A stretch of 64,000 nucleotides of DNA, taken from Lentisphaeria bacterium. GTDB lineage: Bacteria; Verrucomicrobiota; Lentisphaeria; Victivallales; UBA1829. The first letter of the stretch is position 1, and every line of letters starts with the position of its first letter. The DNA is taken from assembly GCA_017503375.1 (NCBI GenBank), contig JAFVTF010000074.1, positions 1-64,000 of the forward strand. The letters run 5' to 3'. Position numbers and translations under genes: made by a program. This document shows positions 52,706-61,813 of this stretch, one piece after another. The notes below the pieces were generated by a model. That model ran no database searches. It had not been told where the DNA came from and saw nothing but the letters and a program-made list of their open reading frames with translations.

Positions 52706-53629
52706 ATGCTTTCAGATATTGTTACAATCGTATTACTGCTTGTGTTTGCTGCGGTATTCTGGATCATTCCGAAAACAAGATCAGCGAATGGTAACTGGAT
52801 GATCGCGCTCAAAACATTTCCGCTTGGATTTATTGCACTCATTTTAAGTGATAAACTGTTGGGAGCCGTTTGCTGTTTTATAAGTGAATACAGAATGGAA
52901 AATATTACTATTCCTTTCTGGTCAGAAATTGTAATTACGATTGCTGCGGCTTTCGTGGTAATGATTGGGGCAGGTATTTTCATTAAACACCGCTGGGGAA
53001 CGGAAAAAAGATACAATCCTTTACCGTCAGTTGTTCTTTTTTTCGCATTTTTGGTTCCTTTTATGATTTTCTTTGTACTTTTGTCTCTGGGATTATCTCT
53101 GCTCTCAATAAAAGATTACCGTTCCGATTGGTACAGCATCTGGCTGAAACTGGGAACGGAAGATCATGTTGCATTTGAACAACAGTCGATTCATCCTTAT
53201 CTGGCAGAATATAACTACCGTTTGCGGTTTGTGCGAGATGGAAAAGTTTCCCGCAGATTGCTTTTTGTAAATACCGGAGGTAAGACTCACTTCAATATTT
53301 ATAAATTGCAGGATGGGCGTTTTCTTTTCCGGGATAAAGATTGGGATTATCTGGTCGATGTTTCCAAACAGGACGTTTCTGTTTTAAGAACTCTGGACAA
53401 GAGACTTTATGCAATTCCAGTTCCGAATGAAGATGTAAATTCCTGGAGCGGATTATATAAAATTGACGGGAAAGTTTATATGGAAGTCGGCTCAGAGAAA
53501 ATTCCTGCAAATGATGTTACAGGAATTTTGGATCGAATGAAATACATTGGATGTATCCGGGATAAGTTTTATTCAGCCGAAGTTCCGGAAGGTGCATTCA
53601 GGGAAATCAAATATTTTCAGAGAAGGTGA
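52706..53629 (+). CDS. Membrane protein of unknown function (307 aa)
   Basis: Four N-terminal hydrophobic segments are seen: ~5-20, 35-60, 72-92, and 108-133 ('FAFLVPFMIFFVLLSLGLSL'). A soluble ~170-residue C-terminal domain follows, rich in Asp, Arg and Tyr ('YRLRFVRDGKVSRRLLFVNT', 'GRFLFRDKDWDYLVDVSK'), which looks like a beta-propeller or WG-like fold. The AGGAGG site is near perfect. I do not recognise a family. Confidence 0.8.
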   Translation: MLSDIVTIVLLLVFAAVFWIIPKTRSANGNWMIALKTFPLGFIALILSDKLLGAVCCFISEYRMENITIPFWSEIVITIAAAFVVMIGAGIFIKHRWGTEKRYNPLPSVVLFFAFLVPFMIFFVLLSLGLSLLSIKDYRSDWYSIWLKLGTEDHVAFEQQSIHPYLAEYNYRLRFVRDGKVSRRLLFVNTGGKTHFNIYKLQDGRFLFRDKDWDYLVDVSKQDVSVLRTLDKRLYAIPVPNEDVNSWSGLYKIDGKVYMEVGSEKIPANDVTGILDRMKYIGCIRDKFYSAEVPEGAFREIKYFQRR

Positions 53630-53707
53630 TTGTATTTTTGAATACGGAAGAATTCAAAAATATCAAGATTTCCGGATTTTTCCGCTTTGAAAAGTCTGCA
53701 TGAAAAC

Positions 53708-53750
53708 AAGGCTGCGGCAGAATTGAATTACCGCAGCCTTATTGCTTTTT
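53708..53750. terminator. Bidirectional terminator between convergent genes
   Basis: AAGGCTGCGG (53708-53717) pairs perfectly with CCGCAGCCTT (53731-53740). A T-run follows on the + strand (53746-53750) and a TTGTTTTC run on the minus strand. It serves both the membrane protein gene and the ankyrin operon. Confidence 0.8.
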
Positions 53751-53778: not shown

Positions 53779-56700
53779 TTATTTTTGTTTTTGATTTTTC
53801 TCTTTCATTTTCCTTCTCAGGTACTGTACAACATCATTCTTTGTTGCATAATCTGCAGCTGTTTTTCCGAAGTTATCTTTATATACCGGATCTGCTCCAT
53901 GAATTTCACAGAGATTTTTAACAATATCATCATCCTGCCTATCTCCTTTACAGGCTGCAATCAATGTTTTGTTGACATATTTCGGATCATTGCCAAGCCG
54001 GTCGAGCAAATAATGAACAGCTTTTTGGTTATTTTCTGTTGCAGCATATTCCCAAACGGTCAAATTGTTATCATCCGTTCTGTCATCCAGCACGATATTA
54101 TGTTTTTCAATCAAATAGCGAAGAGCAAAAAGATTCCTTTGATTTCCTGCGGCGGCATGAAGCAATGTCGTTTTGAACAGTTCCGGGTTATATTTCCCCT
54201 GGCTGATTTCCAGAACAACATTTTCATTGTCTGTCATTTGAACGATTGTGTCAATTGTATCTGCAAAAATTTCAGGATAAGAATAATTTTTTAGCAGGTC
54301 ATAAACAACTGCCATAGGAAGTTCAGCCGGATCTATGCGGCATTTTTCCAGAAAATAGGACAAAATATCATCAAAAGAAAAACATCCCTTTAAAGTTGAA
54401 ATATGTTCTGAAAGTTTTTCGAGAATTTGTGAGGCTGACATTTCTTTGATGCCGATTTCTTCAAGCAATACTATCAGTACATTTGGGCTGTAACCGGAAA
54501 AATTGTCAATGAAATATTCCAAAAAGCTTTCTTCCCCGTCATTTTTTGCGGTCAGATATTCTCTGGGCCATTGCCATTCTATGAAGAAGAGGCGAAGCCA
54601 GGTTTCGGTATGCTCATTGATTTGCAATTTTTTCAGGATATCTTTGTCGGGGAAATAATTCCACAAATTCATTCCATTGGAAATAAGGTACTTCAATGTT
54701 TCGATTTTTCCACTATCCAAAAGAGATATAATGCAATCTGCATCAAGCTGAGCGATTAATCCTCTTGCATTTCCCATAAATCCCTGTTCAACGTATAATT
54801 TGACCAAAGAGATATCCTTTTCGGATATCCAATCAAATCTTCTGCAGCGAACCCCTTTGGAGAGAAAATATTCCAAACCTTCGCAAGTTGAGTTGCCGAA
54901 TGTAAGATATGTATCCAGAATCGTATCTCCATCATTCGGATTCTGCCAATTTATATCAGAATCATATTCTTCAATAAACTTTTTGATCAGCGGAAGATTC
55001 TCAGCATTATTATAAACCAATTTGAATAATGGTGATTCCCCGTCATTATTCAGCTGTTCAAATGCTTTGGGATTGGCATCCCGCAAAACTTTACACAGCT
55101 TTTCATTTCCATTGGAAGCCGCAATATGAAGAGGCCAGTCTCCATCCTTATTTGAAACTGAAACAGAATAGCCCTTCCGCTTGATGAGGTACTCTGCTGT
55201 ATCCGCAGCCATCTCTTCATTCGTGTTTGCCAGCAGATGCAGCAGTGTATTACCTTTGCGGTCTGTATCCGGACAACGCATACCGGGCATTGTCCACAAA
55301 ATATCCAATATTTTTTTTGTTTCCGGGAAAATTTCTTTCACAGCATATTGCATGATATGGATGCTGTCGCCCCAAGATATTTTCTCTCTGTTGATATCAA
55401 GTCCATGTTCAATACACAAGCGGCACAGTTTATCAAACCTTTCCAGAGACAAATCTCCCCGTTTTACCTTGTCAAGAAGCTCAAACACAATTGTTCCGTC
55501 TTCAGAAATAATGCTGGTATCGAGATGGTATTCTGTAACAAGCTTTTCAAAAAGATCGAAATTACTGTTTTGGGCTGCTTTCCAGAGTAAATTTTTATTC
55601 TCGTTATTTTTTTTATGGAGATCGACCCCTTTTTTGACAAGATAGTTGAAGAAATCTGCTTTTGCTTTCTTCGTTACATGAAAGAGCAAATTTTCGCCAT
55701 TCTCATCAACCGCATTGACAGGAAGTTTCAATGTCTCTGTCAAATATTTGAGTTTGTTGTATCCTCCCACACCGCTGAAAAGAGCATTTTTTCCATCAGA
55801 TGCTTTTTTTTCGGGATCTGCCCCAAGCTTTAACAGAATATTCCATGCGGCAATATCTCCATTTTCCACTGCTGTCATAAAAACAGTTTGATCTCTGATG
55901 TTTACTGCATTGATATCGACACCGAACTCCTGAACCAGTTTCCGGGTTATTTTTTCCAATTTCTTCAGCTTTTGCGGAGTATCAAATTCATCACAGTTTT
56001 CATACAGACAATGAAGAACTGTCTGTCCATCATCGTTTGCTTTTTTTACAGTTTCATGATTCGCCCTGTTCAATAATTTTTCAAATAAATCCAGGTTGTT
56101 ATCACTGAAACTGTATTGGTTGAATATCGTATTGCCGTTTTCATCAGATACATTGACATCCGCTTTTTTCTTTATCAGCGTTTGTATAAATTTGGATACA
56201 TTATCCCGAGATAACCAGACCTTAATCAGCGGTCCTCCGGCTTTGACAGAATTGTGTATATTTATTTCAGCACCTGATTCCAGAAGATACCGGGCAATAT
56301 CAATTTCCGATTTTCTGACAGCAATGGCCAGTGGCGTTCCTTGAGAACTGATTGCATTCAATAATTCCGGATCCAAAGAACCATCTTCTTTTTTTCCGCA
56401 GAGAATTGCCACACATTCCTTGATATCTTCAAAAGGGACATTGCTGTCATGGCCTTTTACCGCATTATGTATGGGAAGCAATCCGGAATCATCCCGTGTC
56501 CGGAGCATTTCCGGATAACGGTTCAGAATGAATTTCAGTACCTGGGATTTTCCTTTTTGTGCGGCTTTTGACAGAACATCTGCCTTACGACTCCACCGGC
56601 CTTTGTTTTTGCCTGTAATTGGAATCTTTAAAACATCCAGCATGTATTCAAGAAATTCCACCTTGCCGGACTCACTGGCAGCATCAAGACATCTGGAATC

Positions 56701-58620
56701 CGCCATGGAGTCATCTTTGACCAATGCGGCAAAATCTTCAAATTGCATATCTTTTATGAATCCGGCAATCATTTCATCATTCAACTGCAGAGATGAAATG
56801 ATCGACGCATCCAACAGTTTTTTGACATAGGAATATGGTGTATCATCAATGGAATCTTCAATTGTATCAGAATCTCCTTCCAGATATTCCGGCAATGCAA
56901 AAAGTTCTTTGGAAAAACGCATGAAAGTTTCTTCATACTGAACTTCTGCTAACGAGTTCAATATACTCTTGGCTTGCCTTGTGCAATCCCATTTGTCTCC
57001 GATCTGCCTTGTACGATGATATACGGAGATAAGAAAATCAGTCAGATTTTCCGGGGTATTGTTGGCTTTCAGACGATTTACCCAAACATTCAATTCCGGA
57101 GTGTCATCCTCATTCCATCTGTGTTTTAAGGAACCTGCAATTGTTTTTATAATATCATCAGATTCAAAATCATTTAACTGCTTATCCAAAAGTCCGCTTT
57201 TAACAAAAGCACAGATGATGTCAATAGAAAAACTGCTGTCTGATTTCTCTGCCAGACTTTTCAAGAGAATTTCCTGCTGATTATCCGTCAGCCAATCTTT
57301 TAATTTGATGTCGATAAAAGATGCTGCCACCTTTGCAGCTGTTCCACCCTGATGCAGACCGAATTGCAGCAGCTCAACGAATTGCCGGAACACTGCAGAT
57401 TCATTCTCTATATTTATTTTTTCTGTTTCCTCATCGTCCTCATCGTCCTCATCGTCCTCATCGTCTAAACGATCAAATTCATTTATCAACTTTTCAAGCT
57501 CATCGTCTTCATCGTCTTCATCGTCTTTGTCGTCTTCATTGTCTTCCTCGTACTCTTCATCATCCTCTTCATCACCGTCATCGTTTGAATTCAAAAGATC
57601 TTCTATCAGTCTATCCAAAAGGTCCTGATCATCGTCTTCTTTTCCGGAATTCAGAATATCTGCGAAGAGCTTATCCTTTTGAGATTCAGCCATAAGGAGC
57701 AGAAGGTTTTCATTCATACTGTCAGAGGCAAGCTGCTTTTTCCACTGAGCGAAATTCCAAGTGAGATCATGTTCGCTGCAGACGGCAAGTGCTCTTTTGA
57801 TTTTCACGATATCATCGTTGAAATTCAAAATCAATTCAAACAGGGATGTTCCGCCAATATTATCCGGCAACTCATCCATTCTTTCCGCAAGAGCAGTAAA
57901 AAAGCTGATATTATTATTGACAAGAAGAGGATTCAATGCGTAATAAAGGAGCGGTTTCTGCCCGATTTTCCGGGAGAGATCATCATTTCCATCGAGAAGA
58001 ATCCTCTTGAATGCCGGATAGTTCTGTCCGATCAAAGCATCAAAAAGAGTCAGATTTTCTGCGGAATCTTCCTGCTCTGCAACTTGTGGATTTTTCAGTA
58101 ATTCCACCAGATAGTCGAGCCATTCACGGAATTCTGCCAGCTGGATATAGAATTCATTCTGCATTAATTCTCTGCTGCCGAAATCCAGGGCAAGTTTTCT
58201 GGAAAGATATTTGATATTATCTTCCGAAAAAGGCAGCATGAAATCTTTACTCAATGTTGAAAGCCGATCTTGCAGAACTTGTTTTTCCTCATCAGAACCG
58301 AGCTTGTTTAATATTGTTTTTCCCTGCATTCCCTGCAGTTTTTTCAACGCTTCAAAGAATTTTTGCCAATTTCCCTGATCTGACACCTTGAAAACTCCTT
58401 TTTTCGGAGCCATATCTGCCAGTTCCATGACTTTCATCGGCGGCAGCGGAAGGTCCTGATCAATAAGCAGCAGGCATGACTGCAAACGCAGAGCCTTGCC
58501 GGTTTTTTCCAAATATTGATTCCCCGGAAGAGTATTTACAATATGAAAAACATCCTCAATTCTGAAATTTTCGGGGTCGGTAAATCTGTATGCAGCTTCA
58601 ACAGCAGTAAAAGTATCCAT
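53779..58620 (-). CDS. Giant ankyrin-repeat protein with acidic tract (1613 aa)
   Basis: GGAG lies six bases before the ATG. Residues 1-~330 are helical and unrecognised ('YRFTDPENFRIEDVFHIVNT'). Residues ~330-400 are an acidic Asp/Glu stretch encoded by 9-bp repeats. From ~670 to the end run many ankyrin repeats (e.g. 'GLLPIHNAVKGHD', 'TPLAIAVRKSEIDIARYLLE', 'GNTLLHLLANTNEEMAADTA', 'DGDWPLHIAASNGNEKLC', 'TLLHAAAGNQRNLFALRYLI'). There is no signal peptide. It ends 'LRRKMKEKNQKQK'. It is third in the operon with a MoxR-type ATPase and a metallopeptidase/VWA protein; a substrate, adaptor or scaffold role is inferred. Confidence 0.9.
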   Translation of the reverse strand: MDTFTAVEAAYRFTDPENFRIEDVFHIVNTLPGNQYLEKTGKALRLQSCLLLIDQDLPLPPMKVMELADMAPKKGVFKVSDQGNWQKFFEALKKLQGMQGKTILNKLGSDEEKQVLQDRLSTLSKDFMLPFSEDNIKYLSRKLALDFGSRELMQNEFYIQLAEFREWLDYLVELLKNPQVAEQEDSAENLTLFDALIGQNYPAFKRILLDGNDDLSRKIGQKPLLYYALNPLLVNNNISFFTALAERMDELPDNIGGTSLFELILNFNDDIVKIKRALAVCSEHDLTWNFAQWKKQLASDSMNENLLLLMAESQKDKLFADILNSGKEDDDQDLLDRLIEDLLNSNDDGDEEDDEEYEEDNEDDKDDEDDEDDELEKLINEFDRLDDEDDEDDEDDEETEKINIENESAVFRQFVELLQFGLHQGGTAAKVAASFIDIKLKDWLTDNQQEILLKSLAEKSDSSFSIDIICAFVKSGLLDKQLNDFESDDIIKTIAGSLKHRWNEDDTPELNVWVNRLKANNTPENLTDFLISVYHRTRQIGDKWDCTRQAKSILNSLAEVQYEETFMRFSKELFALPEYLEGDSDTIEDSIDDTPYSYVKKLLDASIISSLQLNDEMIAGFIKDMQFEDFAALVKDDSMADSRCLDAASESGKVEFLEYMLDVLKIPITGKNKGRWSRKADVLSKAAQKGKSQVLKFILNRYPEMLRTRDDSGLLPIHNAVKGHDSNVPFEDIKECVAILCGKKEDGSLDPELLNAISSQGTPLAIAVRKSEIDIARYLLESGAEINIHNSVKAGGPLIKVWLSRDNVSKFIQTLIKKKADVNVSDENGNTIFNQYSFSDNNLDLFEKLLNRANHETVKKANDDGQTVLHCLYENCDEFDTPQKLKKLEKITRKLVQEFGVDINAVNIRDQTVFMTAVENGDIAAWNILLKLGADPEKKASDGKNALFSGVGGYNKLKYLTETLKLPVNAVDENGENLLFHVTKKAKADFFNYLVKKGVDLHKKNNENKNLLWKAAQNSNFDLFEKLVTEYHLDTSIISEDGTIVFELLDKVKRGDLSLERFDKLCRLCIEHGLDINREKISWGDSIHIMQYAVKEIFPETKKILDILWTMPGMRCPDTDRKGNTLLHLLANTNEEMAADTAEYLIKRKGYSVSVSNKDGDWPLHIAASNGNEKLCKVLRDANPKAFEQLNNDGESPLFKLVYNNAENLPLIKKFIEEYDSDINWQNPNDGDTILDTYLTFGNSTCEGLEYFLSKGVRCRRFDWISEKDISLVKLYVEQGFMGNARGLIAQLDADCIISLLDSGKIETLKYLISNGMNLWNYFPDKDILKKLQINEHTETWLRLFFIEWQWPREYLTAKNDGEESFLEYFIDNFSGYSPNVLIVLLEEIGIKEMSASQILEKLSEHISTLKGCFSFDDILSYFLEKCRIDPAELPMAVVYDLLKNYSYPEIFADTIDTIVQMTDNENVVLEISQGKYNPELFKTTLLHAAAGNQRNLFALRYLIEKHNIVLDDRTDDNNLTVWEYAATENNQKAVHYLLDRLGNDPKYVNKTLIAACKGDRQDDDIVKNLCEIHGADPVYKDNFGKTAADYATKNDVVQYLRRKMKEKNQKQK
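57431..57535. repeat. 9-bp tandem arrays coding an Asp/Glu tract
   Basis: Two arrays of TCATCGTCC- or TCATCGTCT-type 9-mers (57431-57465, about four copies, and ~57499-57535, about four copies) encode D-D-E units in the ankyrin gene. The unit is a multiple of three, so slippage would change the length of the acidic tract without breaking the frame. Confidence 0.75.
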
Positions 58621-58635
58621 TTCTTTCTCCGGACA

Positions 58636-60516
58636 TTATTTGATGTGTACTTGTTTCCCGTATGGCACATTGATACGTTTTTGGGGGCCGACAAGACACC
58701 ACAAAACATCATACGGCAGACGCATTTGAGGTATATCTAACTTCGGGTTGAATTCCCCATCTGTAATTACAATCACGCCTTTTACATCGGGTTCATTCAA
58801 GTATGCCAGCATACCGGGGGTCATGTCTGTTCCGCCCATGCCTTTGATTGTATAATCACGCAACTCATCAGGTGTGATCTCTTTTATATCCTGAACAGCT
58901 TCATCGCATTCAATAATCTTGATCATATCAACAGCATTCCGTTCACAGAATGCAGCAATTGCACCAAGCGCATCCGGCAGATAATTTCCCATACTGCCGC
59001 TGGTATCAAGCACTATGTTGATACTGTAACCGCAGCGGGCATGTCCGGGAAGACAGCATCGCGGATCCGGCAGGTCGCCTCTGCGGCTTGCTCTGTTAAA
59101 GGTTCTTACAATCCGGGAATATCCATCAAGCCAGTTCTGGAGAAATGCCTGCCACGGCACATTGTAAAGTCCATCCCGGACTTCTACATCCTGAACAGTT
59201 CCCTGACCGGAGACAAGGGAGCTCGCCTGACGCCGGGCTTGTTCCATTTCCTGGATTCTCCGGTTGATTTCTTCATCGCTTAATCCCGGACAGCGTTCTT
59301 TTAACTCATCCTTACTCCGGAGATCTCCGCAGCCCAGACCTTTTTCCTGTCCCGTTCCTTGTCCTTGCCCCGATCCTTGTCCACCTTGATCTGCACATTG
59401 CTTTGTTCTGAAAGTCAGAATTCCGTTCAAAGAAAGAGTTCCATCTTCTGCATAACGGAGTGTCAATGAACCTTCGAGAACAAAAGGCGGATAGATTATT
59501 TGTGAAACATGAAAAACGCTTTCTCCGCCGGGAAGAAGGTGTCCTGTATCTGAATTATCATTCCAGCTTATTGGAATTTCAACATCAAGCTGCTGTCCAG
59601 TATTTTCAAAGATGTCAAGATTGAGTTTCAGTTTGGAAAGAACTTCTGTAATTTCCTTTTTGCCGGGATTCATTTTTTCAACATCAATGACAAACACTTT
59701 TTCCGGTCTGTTTTTCCCATTATCCGTCAGCGGATAAATTTCACCAACGGAAAGTATAAACGGGAAATTTTGTTTCTGCTTGCAGACGACACTCCCGTTC
59801 AAGGTGACATTTTTCAAAAAAATTTCCAGAGCCTTGCTTTCGGATTCACGGGAGAATATGAGCAGGGCTGCAACAATATCTTCCATACTCATTTCATCAA
59901 TGGAAACAAATCTTTCAGCCGGCAGAAGACTTTCACAGAGTTTTTCCAACTTATATTCTTCAGCCGTTTTTTTACATTTTACTTCCAGTCCGATTTCAAT
60001 TATATCCTCAGGCAAAGTGTCGGAACATCCGGGAGCTGTCAGGGAAATTACCTTTGAGAAGTTATCCCAGTAACGGTCTTTTTCCCACCACATTCCGTCC
60101 TTCATTTCTTCCCGGATCGTTTTGAAGTTATGAGCTTCAAAATAGGTTGCCACCATATGATTGATCTGAGTGTCACTGGCTATATTAACCAGCTTACACA
60201 AATCCGGATCAGCTGTTTTTACACGGGAAAAGGTTCCCATATAATGGTGCCCCAGTTCATGTGCAATGATAAATGCTGTTTGCTTTTCAGAAAGTTGGGT
60301 CAGAAAAGCGGACCCGAATTCCATGCTTCCATCGGGGTATGTTTGTGCTGTTGCAACATCATCTTTGACAGAGATTTTACGATACCTTTCCGCCATCTCC
60401 AGCAGGGGTGCGAAATGGGGCATCACCATAATCATCAATGTCCGGGCATCAGCCAACTTCTTTTCAAGCGCCTTCCGGCTGAGCAGGGTATTAGTTTTGG
60501 ATTTTTTATCAGCCAT
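58636..60516 (-). CDS. Zinc-metallopeptidase-like and VWA domain protein (DUF2201-type)
   Basis: The 626-aa protein has an N-terminal domain with 'AFIIAHELGHHYMGTFSR' (HExxH at 86-90 plus a following His), a zinc peptidase-like site. A middle linker rich in Gly/Gln ('GQGSGQGQGTGQEKG') is flexible. The C-terminal VWA has MIDAS residues 'DTSGS' (504-508), Thr in 'GGTDMTPG' (~563) and Asp in 'VIVITDGEF' (~586). The pattern matches COG3864-type proteins, often beside MoxR ATPases. Start ATG 60516 follows AGGA. It lies 27 bases after the AAA+ gene, so the two very likely work together. Confidence 0.92.
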   Translation of the reverse strand: MADKKSKTNTLLSRKALEKKLADARTLMIMVMPHFAPLLEMAERYRKISVKDDVATAQTYPDGSMEFGSAFLTQLSEKQTAFIIAHELGHHYMGTFSRVKTADPDLCKLVNIASDTQINHMVATYFEAHNFKTIREEMKDGMWWEKDRYWDNFSKVISLTAPGCSDTLPEDIIEIGLEVKCKKTAEEYKLEKLCESLLPAERFVSIDEMSMEDIVAALLIFSRESESKALEIFLKNVTLNGSVVCKQKQNFPFILSVGEIYPLTDNGKNRPEKVFVIDVEKMNPGKKEITEVLSKLKLNLDIFENTGQQLDVEIPISWNDNSDTGHLLPGGESVFHVSQIIYPPFVLEGSLTLRYAEDGTLSLNGILTFRTKQCADQGGQGSGQGQGTGQEKGLGCGDLRSKDELKERCPGLSDEEINRRIQEMEQARRQASSLVSGQGTVQDVEVRDGLYNVPWQAFLQNWLDGYSRIVRTFNRASRRGDLPDPRCCLPGHARCGYSINIVLDTSGSMGNYLPDALGAIAAFCERNAVDMIKIIECDEAVQDIKEITPDELRDYTIKGMGGTDMTPGMLAYLNEPDVKGVIVITDGEFNPKLDIPQMRLPYDVLWCLVGPQKRINVPYGKQVHIK

Positions 60517-60543
60517 AGCATCATTCCTGAATAAAGTGAAAGA

Positions 60544-61731
60544 TTACTGCAAACGCATACGGGCAATGGTTTCCGTTGCTCCGAATTGCTGAAGAGTTTT
60601 CAATACTTTTTCTGCAAGAATGATCATAAATTCTTTCGGCATGGAACAGAAAAATGCATCAATTTTCTTTCCACCGAGTTTTTTTATTGCTTTGTAGGAT
60701 GAACTGTCGGGATTTGCCAGAGCCTGCTGTATGCGGTCAAATATAATGGCTCGTTCAAAAATCTTGCTTGAATTTGTCAAATCTTCTCCGCTGGTCTGGG
60801 GAATGGCATCCGGATGTTCAATATAATATTCCGCAGGTTTCATTTCCTGAAAATTATATTTCTTATAGGTACAGAATGCATCTGCATGCTGGGCTGAAAT
60901 CGAACCGCGAGCCAAAACTTCCACATCTTTCTCTGTCAAACCGTCAGCCTCTGCGTTTTGCAGAAACGATACGGATTTATCCACTTTCTTTCCGTAAATG
61001 CTTTTGATTCGTGCAGCAGGATTTTTCCGGAATTCTTCCAGGGCATCCATTGCCGCACTCAAAGCAGCCCAGGAACGCGGTGTGGAAAACGGTTCATTGG
61101 CATTTGAAGGAACCTTTGAACCGGTATCCGGATCTTTGTACTGCAGACAGAAGTCGTTTGCTGCAATGAATGCGCGGATATCATCACGGACTTTTGTTTT
61201 TCCATTGTCATCTATTTGACTGCCCCATTCCAGCCATTCTTTCACACTGACCTTGATATGGAGTATGATAACCCGGTTGACCAATGCTGTGGACATCGCT
61301 CTGACCATGGCACTGTCTTCAATATTGTTTCCTGCTGCAACAACAATGGTTCCTTTGGGCAGTTTGCGTTCTCCGATTTTCCGGTCAAGCAGCAGAGAAT
61401 ACATTGCTTTCTGAACTTCCTGATTACAGATCGGCAGTTCATCCAAAAAAAGAACAAACGGCTTTCCATCCGCAGGAAGCAGGAGTTTCGGAGGATAAAA
61501 TACAGAACGCTGGTTGTCACCTTCTCCTTCAATACGGGGGATACCGCTGATATCTTCCGGGGCAATCTGTGTACCGAGCAGTGAGCGGCATTCGTATCCA
61601 AGGGTGTCTGCGATTTGCTGCACAATATCACTTTTACCAACTCCGGGAGACGCAAGCATCAGGATGCTCTGATTGGTTCCCATAGACATGATAATCTGTT
61701 TTGCTTCTGCCAAAGTGACTTCTGTTTTCAT
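60544..61731 (-). CDS. MoxR-type AAA+ ATPase
   Basis: The 395-aa protein has Walker A 'LASPGVGKSDIVQQI' (27-41), 'APEDISGIPRIEG' (pore-type loop region), Walker B 'PFVLFLDELPICNQEVQKAM' (91-110), sensor 1 'TIVVAAGNNIEDSA' and 'ALVNRVIILHIKVSVKEWLE' (arginine region). The C-terminal ~100 residues are unusual ('KIDAFFCSMPKEFMIILAEK'). It probably remodels a substrate or loads metal onto the adjacent VWA protein, as proposed for MoxR-VWA systems. AAGGGG stands before the ATG. It heads the three-gene operon. Confidence 0.94.
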   Translation of the reverse strand: MKTEVTLAEAKQIIMSMGTNQSILMLASPGVGKSDIVQQIADTLGYECRSLLGTQIAPEDISGIPRIEGEGDNQRSVFYPPKLLLPADGKPFVLFLDELPICNQEVQKAMYSLLLDRKIGERKLPKGTIVVAAGNNIEDSAMVRAMSTALVNRVIILHIKVSVKEWLEWGSQIDDNGKTKVRDDIRAFIAANDFCLQYKDPDTGSKVPSNANEPFSTPRSWAALSAAMDALEEFRKNPAARIKSIYGKKVDKSVSFLQNAEADGLTEKDVEVLARGSISAQHADAFCTYKKYNFQEMKPAEYYIEHPDAIPQTSGEDLTNSSKIFERAIIFDRIQQALANPDSSSYKAIKKLGGKKIDAFFCSMPKEFMIILAEKVLKTLQQFGATETIARMRLQ

Positions 61732-61785
61732 TCTCTACCCCTTCTTTGTATATTTCAGTTTGTTTTATATAAATATTTCAAACCT

Positions 61786-61813
61786 AATATAACAGGGATA
61801 TCGGGAATTTCAA
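61786..61813 (-). promoter_or_regulatory. Promoter of the AAA+/VWA/ankyrin operon
   Basis: On the minus strand TTGAAA (61813-61808), 16 bases, TATATT (61791-61786), 55 bases before the ATG. It lies in the ~200-base gap after the DUF89 gene. Confidence 0.6.

Follow-up and report, generated by a model that had tools for sequence, protein, structure and literature searches.

The locus examined here raises the question of whether a giant ankyrin-repeat protein is a constant partner of a MoxR-type AAA+ ATPase and a putative metallopeptidase-vWA protein, and what such a partner might do. The three genes lie in a stretch of 64,000 nucleotides from a Lentisphaeria bacterium, hereafter called the window (Table 1). 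A preliminary description had placed them in one tight operon with its own promoter and a bidirectional terminator. The open reading frames were found exactly as described, co-directional and separated by gaps of 27 and 15 bases; the longest open reading frame in 20 shuffles of the region did not exceed 146 aa. Shine-Dalgarno-like sequences preceded the MoxR and ankyrin starts. Just 3' of the ankyrin stop, a long, symmetric inverted repeat (-25 kcal/mol, z = -5.8) separated the ankyrin gene from a convergent gene at 52706-53629, which agrees with a bidirectional terminator. The promoter fared less well: a site with 10 of 12 matches was present, so that a promoter ahead of the trio is plausible, but such sites were no commoner in the window than in shuffled sequence. 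Taken together, the layout suggests that the three genes form one co-transcribed unit. The trio was flanked in the window by genes for a DUF89/ARMT1-like phosphatase, glycoside-hydrolase-like, glycosyltransferase, MatE, Na+/H+ exchanger, EamA and ABC/HlyD proteins. The defence-island neighbours that had been considered for the trio were not found among these flank genes.

Table 1. Features of the three-gene locus in the window.
Feature	Position	Strand	Basis
MoxR-type AAA+ ATPase gene, P0001, 395 aa	60544-61731	-	ORF and domain models
Zincin-vWA gene, P0002, DUF2201 family, 626 aa	58636-60516	-	ORF and domain models
Giant ankyrin-repeat gene, P0003, 1613 aa (third-component slot)	53779-58620	-	ORF and ankyrin models
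Candidate sigma-70 type promoter, extended -10, TTGAAA-16-TATATT, 10/12 matches	61786-61813	-	Pattern match
Beta-rich extra insert of P0002, aa 310-371	59404-59589	-	Alignment with nearest relatives
P0003 aa 80-107 (SDQGNWQKFFEALKKL...), weakly similar to the usual middle domain	58300-58383	-	Profile comparison, suggestive
Acidic tract of P0003, aa 347-400	57421-57582	-	Composition; up to 83% Asp/Glu over 30 residues
Symmetric terminator-like inverted repeat AAGGCTGCGG...CCGCAGCCTT	53706-53744	unstranded	Folding

The domain assignments made earlier for the first two proteins were borne out by domain models above cut-off and by intact active-site residues. P0001 matched the Pfam models AAA_5 (33.8 bits) and AAA (24.0 bits) above cut-off; the MoxR-type models AAA_3 (19.7, cut-off 27) and bpMoxR (22.3, cut-off 27) remained below it. 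Its Walker A motif (PGVGKS), preceded by about 25 residues, was accompanied by Walker B (LFLDE), N135, R153 and R219, and residues G30, G32, K33, S34, D97, E98, N135, R153 and R219 were kept in nearly all relatives (n = 81), the signature of the subfamily being SLLGTQIAPEDxSGxPR. P0002 combined an N-terminal putative metallopeptidase domain (DUF2201_N, 37.8 bits; HELGH, D115, E191) with a C-terminal vWA-like domain (DUF2201, 53.9 bits) harboring an intact MIDAS (DTSGS...TDG), both above cut-off. The HExxH residues H86, E87 and H90 and the MIDAS residues D504, S506, S508 and D586 were conserved in 97-100% of 74 near relatives, and the same residues together with D115 and E191 were invariant across 44 zincin-vWA sequences. 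Considering that the ATPase, zincin and MIDAS residues were conserved in nearly all relatives, the three activities have probably been retained in the window pair. By sequence, no significant solved-structure relative was found for either the alignment of the P0001 subfamily or P0002. A fold search with the model of the zincin-vWA protein gave a single interpretable match, the minimal peptidase selecase (TM 0.60 on the target), which was non-significant (E 0.16). P0002 also contained a long, partly beta-rich insert that was absent from the nearest relatives aligned.

In the ATPase tree, the window sequence joined 80 others of the subfamily with support of 96/94, on a long branch for which, according to the warning of the program, such joins are unsure; 15-16 distant paralogs of the same order fell outside this group. 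Under a strict gap rule, 61 of the 80 nearest ATPase loci had the MoxR and zincin-vWA genes adjacent to each other, and the other 19 were mostly loci where the vWA ORF overlapped an ATPase with too early a start call, or contig edges. A close pair was detected in 3 of 388 genomes of the phylum of the window and in at least 1 of 392 genomes of a Planctomycetota sample, the latter count being a lower bound because few candidates were scored per genome. Close pairs also occurred in Rhizobiales, Burkholderiales, Acidobacteriota, Bacteroidota, Spirochaetota and Lentisphaerota, and none was present in the same-genus genomes. The pair is rare and patchily distributed. An empty-site comparison gave no clean site, as the flanks were rearranged in the same-genus genomes. 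In viral contigs, a pattern scan gave only distant matches, and no match was found for the N-terminus of P0003.

Several distant or unusual pairs were also observed. The genome of the window harbors a second, distant MoxR/zincin-vWA pair (L032:216-4779, G000:C109), which follows a UvrD-type helicase gene; this arrangement recurred within the same taxonomic order, at seven loci in all (L032, L038, L041, L042, L043, L046 and L047), and in L051 a different helicase-like gene occupied the place of the helicase. In three Thermoguttaceae loci (L065, L080 and L084), tandem MoxR-matching ORFs of about 250 and 345 aa were followed by one zincin-vWA gene and preceded by two genes of the headed third type described below. 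An unclassified short repeat, L..HPEL...CPW..L, was found in the pair neighbours L040:1346-2475, L044:3132-6341, L045:2620-3768 and L062:7287-9101, some of which end in a single ankyrin-like repeat; those of the neighbours that were scanned had no Pfam match.

The genes next to the pair were then compared among the 80 nearest ATPase loci, and one large homologous group was found. A profile of the first 36 residues detected a third gene with a common head at 68 of the 80 loci, downstream at 52 and upstream at 16; several of the 12 negative loci were short contigs or contig ends. The head comprises 36 aa in two helices (MKVIxELVxYF...GxLSxxQ..LL..G). Usually, a disordered, acidic linker in which Asp, Glu and Tyr abound comes next and then a basic patch, and a helical middle domain is often present after the linker. 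The tail is variable and may be an LCCL (PF03815), FGE-sulfatase, BspA-type LRR or HEAT domain. In long third components, the most acidic 30 residues had a mean Asp/Glu fraction of 0.40 (background mean 0.21, 95th percentile 0.33); short LCCL-containing ones lacked the acidic linker and the middle domain. At L056:12249-12635 and at many Rhizobiales and Burkholderiales loci, the third gene encodes about 128 aa consisting of the head and LCCL, with no obvious signal peptide. The LCCL domain is best known from eukaryotic extracellular proteins.

When five genomes were searched with the third-component profile, the matches coincided with known close pairs (two in G013 and one each in G004 and G431) and adjoined them, except that the G431 match was not tied to the L128 copy. 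Two same-genus genomes without a close pair gave no match. The third component had no significant solved-structure relative by sequence, and a fold search with its AlphaFold2 model (pLDDT 70) found no PDB match. From these comparisons, the pair apparently has a third gene of its own that seems not to have been described. The recurrent feature is a third-protein slot whose occupant has a variable tail.

In the window, this slot is occupied by P0003, whose gene lies in the usual downstream position, on the same strand, 15 bases past the vWA gene. The description of P0003 as a 1613-residue ankyrin protein with an acidic tract was accurate: Ank_2 scored 174.5 bits over seven stretches, a non-ankyrin N-terminal region of about 680 aa precedes ankyrin repeats at about 683-1605, and the DNA of the acidic tract overlaps period-9 tandem repeats at 57428-57465 and 57500-57551. 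The acidic fraction over 30 residues (0.83) exceeded the means of both the long third components and the background given above, and the tract begins at residue 347, whereas that of the usual third components lies just after the N-terminus. The full third-component profile did not match P0003 even with filters off, and the 36-aa head was found neither in P0003 nor in the rest of the window. A whole-protein profile for which positive controls gave matches detected no usual headed third gene in the genome of the window, which is 94% complete. A weak similarity to the middle-domain profile was seen at residues 80-107 of P0003 (5.3 bits, single-test E 0.0011). This score was level with those of the accepted divergent members L104 and L123 and with the top of an unrelated set, and 1 of 10 shuffled controls scored better in the hhalign test.

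The claim that the ankyrin protein is a fixed third partner did not survive the comparison of gene order. The fetched flanks of the 80 nearest ATPase loci, up to 10 kb long where contigs allowed, were free of ankyrin genes. The 137 genomes compared from the same order contained no ortholog of P0003; 53 of them gave matches, essentially all inside the ankyrin part. A fixed ankyrin partner is thereby ruled out, as the ankyrin gene is not conserved beside the pair and the same-genus genomes lack a close pair altogether. The genome of L128 gave a weak match to P0003 that turned out to be unrelated. A clear ankyrin neighbour was seen beside one other such pair only, at L037:932-4975 (G013:C329), where a 496-aa ankyrin protein and the start of a distant paralogous MoxR/zincin-vWA pair of the same family overlap. 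The ankyrin form of the system is a single case. Because the arrangement is a singleton, it is the operon-like structure that carries the argument for functional linkage. The insert of P0002 makes two of the three partners unusual here, which would fit co-evolution. P0003 is likely to be functionally equivalent to the usual third component; it looks like a one-off version, in the window species, of a swappable third part, and could be a recently acquired neighbour. It is best read as a client or a recogniser.

It is about evenly balanced whether the locus represents a divergent form of a rare, patchy ternary system composed of a MoxR AAA+ ring, a zincin-vWA co-chaperone/peptidase and a variable-tailed third protein, which here would be a giant ankyrin protein. 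A wider proposal is put forward with more hesitation, namely that such loci make up a hitherto undescribed class of ternary recognition systems, driven by ATP and armed with a peptidase, in which the target-binding tail (LCCL, LRR, HEAT, FGE lectin-like or ankyrin) is exchanged between lineages and that, in the window, the head was lost and the third protein was replaced by a 1613-aa ankyrin sensor. In such a system, the ankyrin array, or elsewhere the LRR, HEAT, LCCL or C-type-lectin-like FGE domains, would bind a target. Ligands of vWA and integrin I domains present an acidic residue that the MIDAS site coordinates; therefore, an acidic flexible tract on the third protein would be a natural handle. 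The vWA MIDAS may hold the third protein, or the MoxR ring may take it in via this tract; ATP hydrolysis would remodel that complex, and the zincin would cleave either the target or the third protein itself. The complex as such, the part played by the acidic tract, the cleavage and any function of the trio in conflict or stress are predictions. In the MoxR-vWA pairs studied, the vWA domain binds a peptide via MIDAS, and the peptide is remodelled by the ring (PMC7159879); C-type-lectin/FGE tails of MoxR-vWA systems have been proposed as sensors (PMC10907252).

The ternary reading must be weighed against simpler ones. It is possible, but rather unlikely, that the ankyrin gene has no relation to the pair or joined it only recently. 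The pair would then work alone, as in phages, and P0003 would be one ankyrin protein among the many of the order, lying downstream by chance. The abundance of ankyrin proteins in the order, the lack of any at the 80 nearest loci and the rearranged flanks of the same-genus genomes are all consistent with chance, as is the pair of phage KP8, which lacks a third gene and is followed by a dCTP deaminase gene. However, the 15-base gap with a Shine-Dalgarno-like sequence and the placing of the terminator only after the third gene count against a chance neighbour. The usual third gene, which stands beside the pair in most close relatives, was also not found in the window genome, and an acidic tract is common to P0003 and the third components.

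A housekeeping chaperone appears improbable. Here, maturation or repair by the pair would be directed at a single large client (P0003) or at a metalloenzyme, in the manner of RavA-ViaA and NorQ-NorD, with the zincin as a processing peptidase. Characterised MoxR-vWA pairs serve assembly or cofactor insertion (PMC7159879, PMC9976466), phage versions were proposed to act in virion assembly (PMC7824862), and the lack of defence neighbours in the flanks of the trio would also suit this function. Such a factor would not be expected to occur as sporadically as the counts given above for the phylum and the Planctomycetota sample indicate, nor to have swapped third-gene tails, and no conserved client gene was found beside the pair. 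Far less probable still is that the trio belongs to the described MoxR-vWA ternary conflict systems (VMAP, iSTAND, FtsH, beta-propeller, iSTAND2, TERNS3). These have the same two-part core, a variable third component and FGE domains in common with it, but P0001-P0003 matched no such Pfam model above cut-off (bpMoxR reaching 22.3 of 27), nor a propeller-vWA fusion; the vWA protein has a zincin in place of a C-terminal effector, and DUF2201, LCCL and ankyrin are absent from the main text of the founding paper. The divergent ternary system thus remains the preferred reading of the locus. MoxR-vWA machines are widespread, and a client is known for few of them. If a separate, exchangeable client-binding protein and a peptidase-bearing vWA subunit do exist, the target of the ring would become directly testable via one small gene, such as that for the 128-aa head-LCCL protein of the culturable Bosea; the giant ankyrin form would then be an extreme natural variant of the client-binding part.

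Searches of known defence and ternary families by Pfam, NCBIfam and PADLOC gave no specific match; with PADLOC profiles, the matches were marginal for P0001 and P0002 and confined to the ankyrin region for P0003. No paper on the bacterial three-gene form or on the third component was found within the main text of open-licence articles, none on the trio was found for DUF2201 by titles and abstracts, and none for COG3864 or for LCCL with MoxR in open-licence text. RavA-ViaA, NorQ-NorD, CbbQ-CbbO and further MoxR-vWA chaperone pairs likewise consist of a MoxR ring and a vWA cofactor using the MIDAS site. They have dedicated metabolic clients and are not known to have a peptidase domain or a swappable third gene.

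The closest known relatives of the pair are found in phages. The MoxR AAA+/metallopeptidase-vWA pair was reported in group 2.2 jumbo phages, where virion assembly was suggested as its function (PMC7824862), and the same two proteins, MoxR followed by zincin-vWA, occur in these and in N4-like phages (phrog_1297 and phrog_1314). P0001 matched phrog_1297 with E=7e-60 and P0002 matched phrog_1314 with E=3.5e-42, and the phage ATPases are about 28-38% identical. In the N4-like Klebsiella phage KP8 (gp35-gp36), gp36 has HELWH and DVSGS; unlike the bacterial loci, this one phage locus inspected has no such third gene. Both phrog_1314 and KP8 gp36 (L183:4471-5622) are annotated as 'HNH endonuclease', apparently a mis-annotation of a zincin-vWA protein. 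The zincin-vWA/MoxR pair of phages and the general idea of a MoxR-vWA ternary system are already known. As far as the available text of PMC7159879 (VMAP, iSTAND, FtsH and beta-propeller) and PMC8195603 (iSTAND2 and TERNS3) describes them, the ternary conflict systems share with the present loci the core, a third component and variable sensor- or effector-like domains, including FGE and repeat proteins. The head family of the third component is not among the families described there, and, in contrast to those systems, the window-type vWA domain is fused to a zincin and the variable domains are carried by the third protein.
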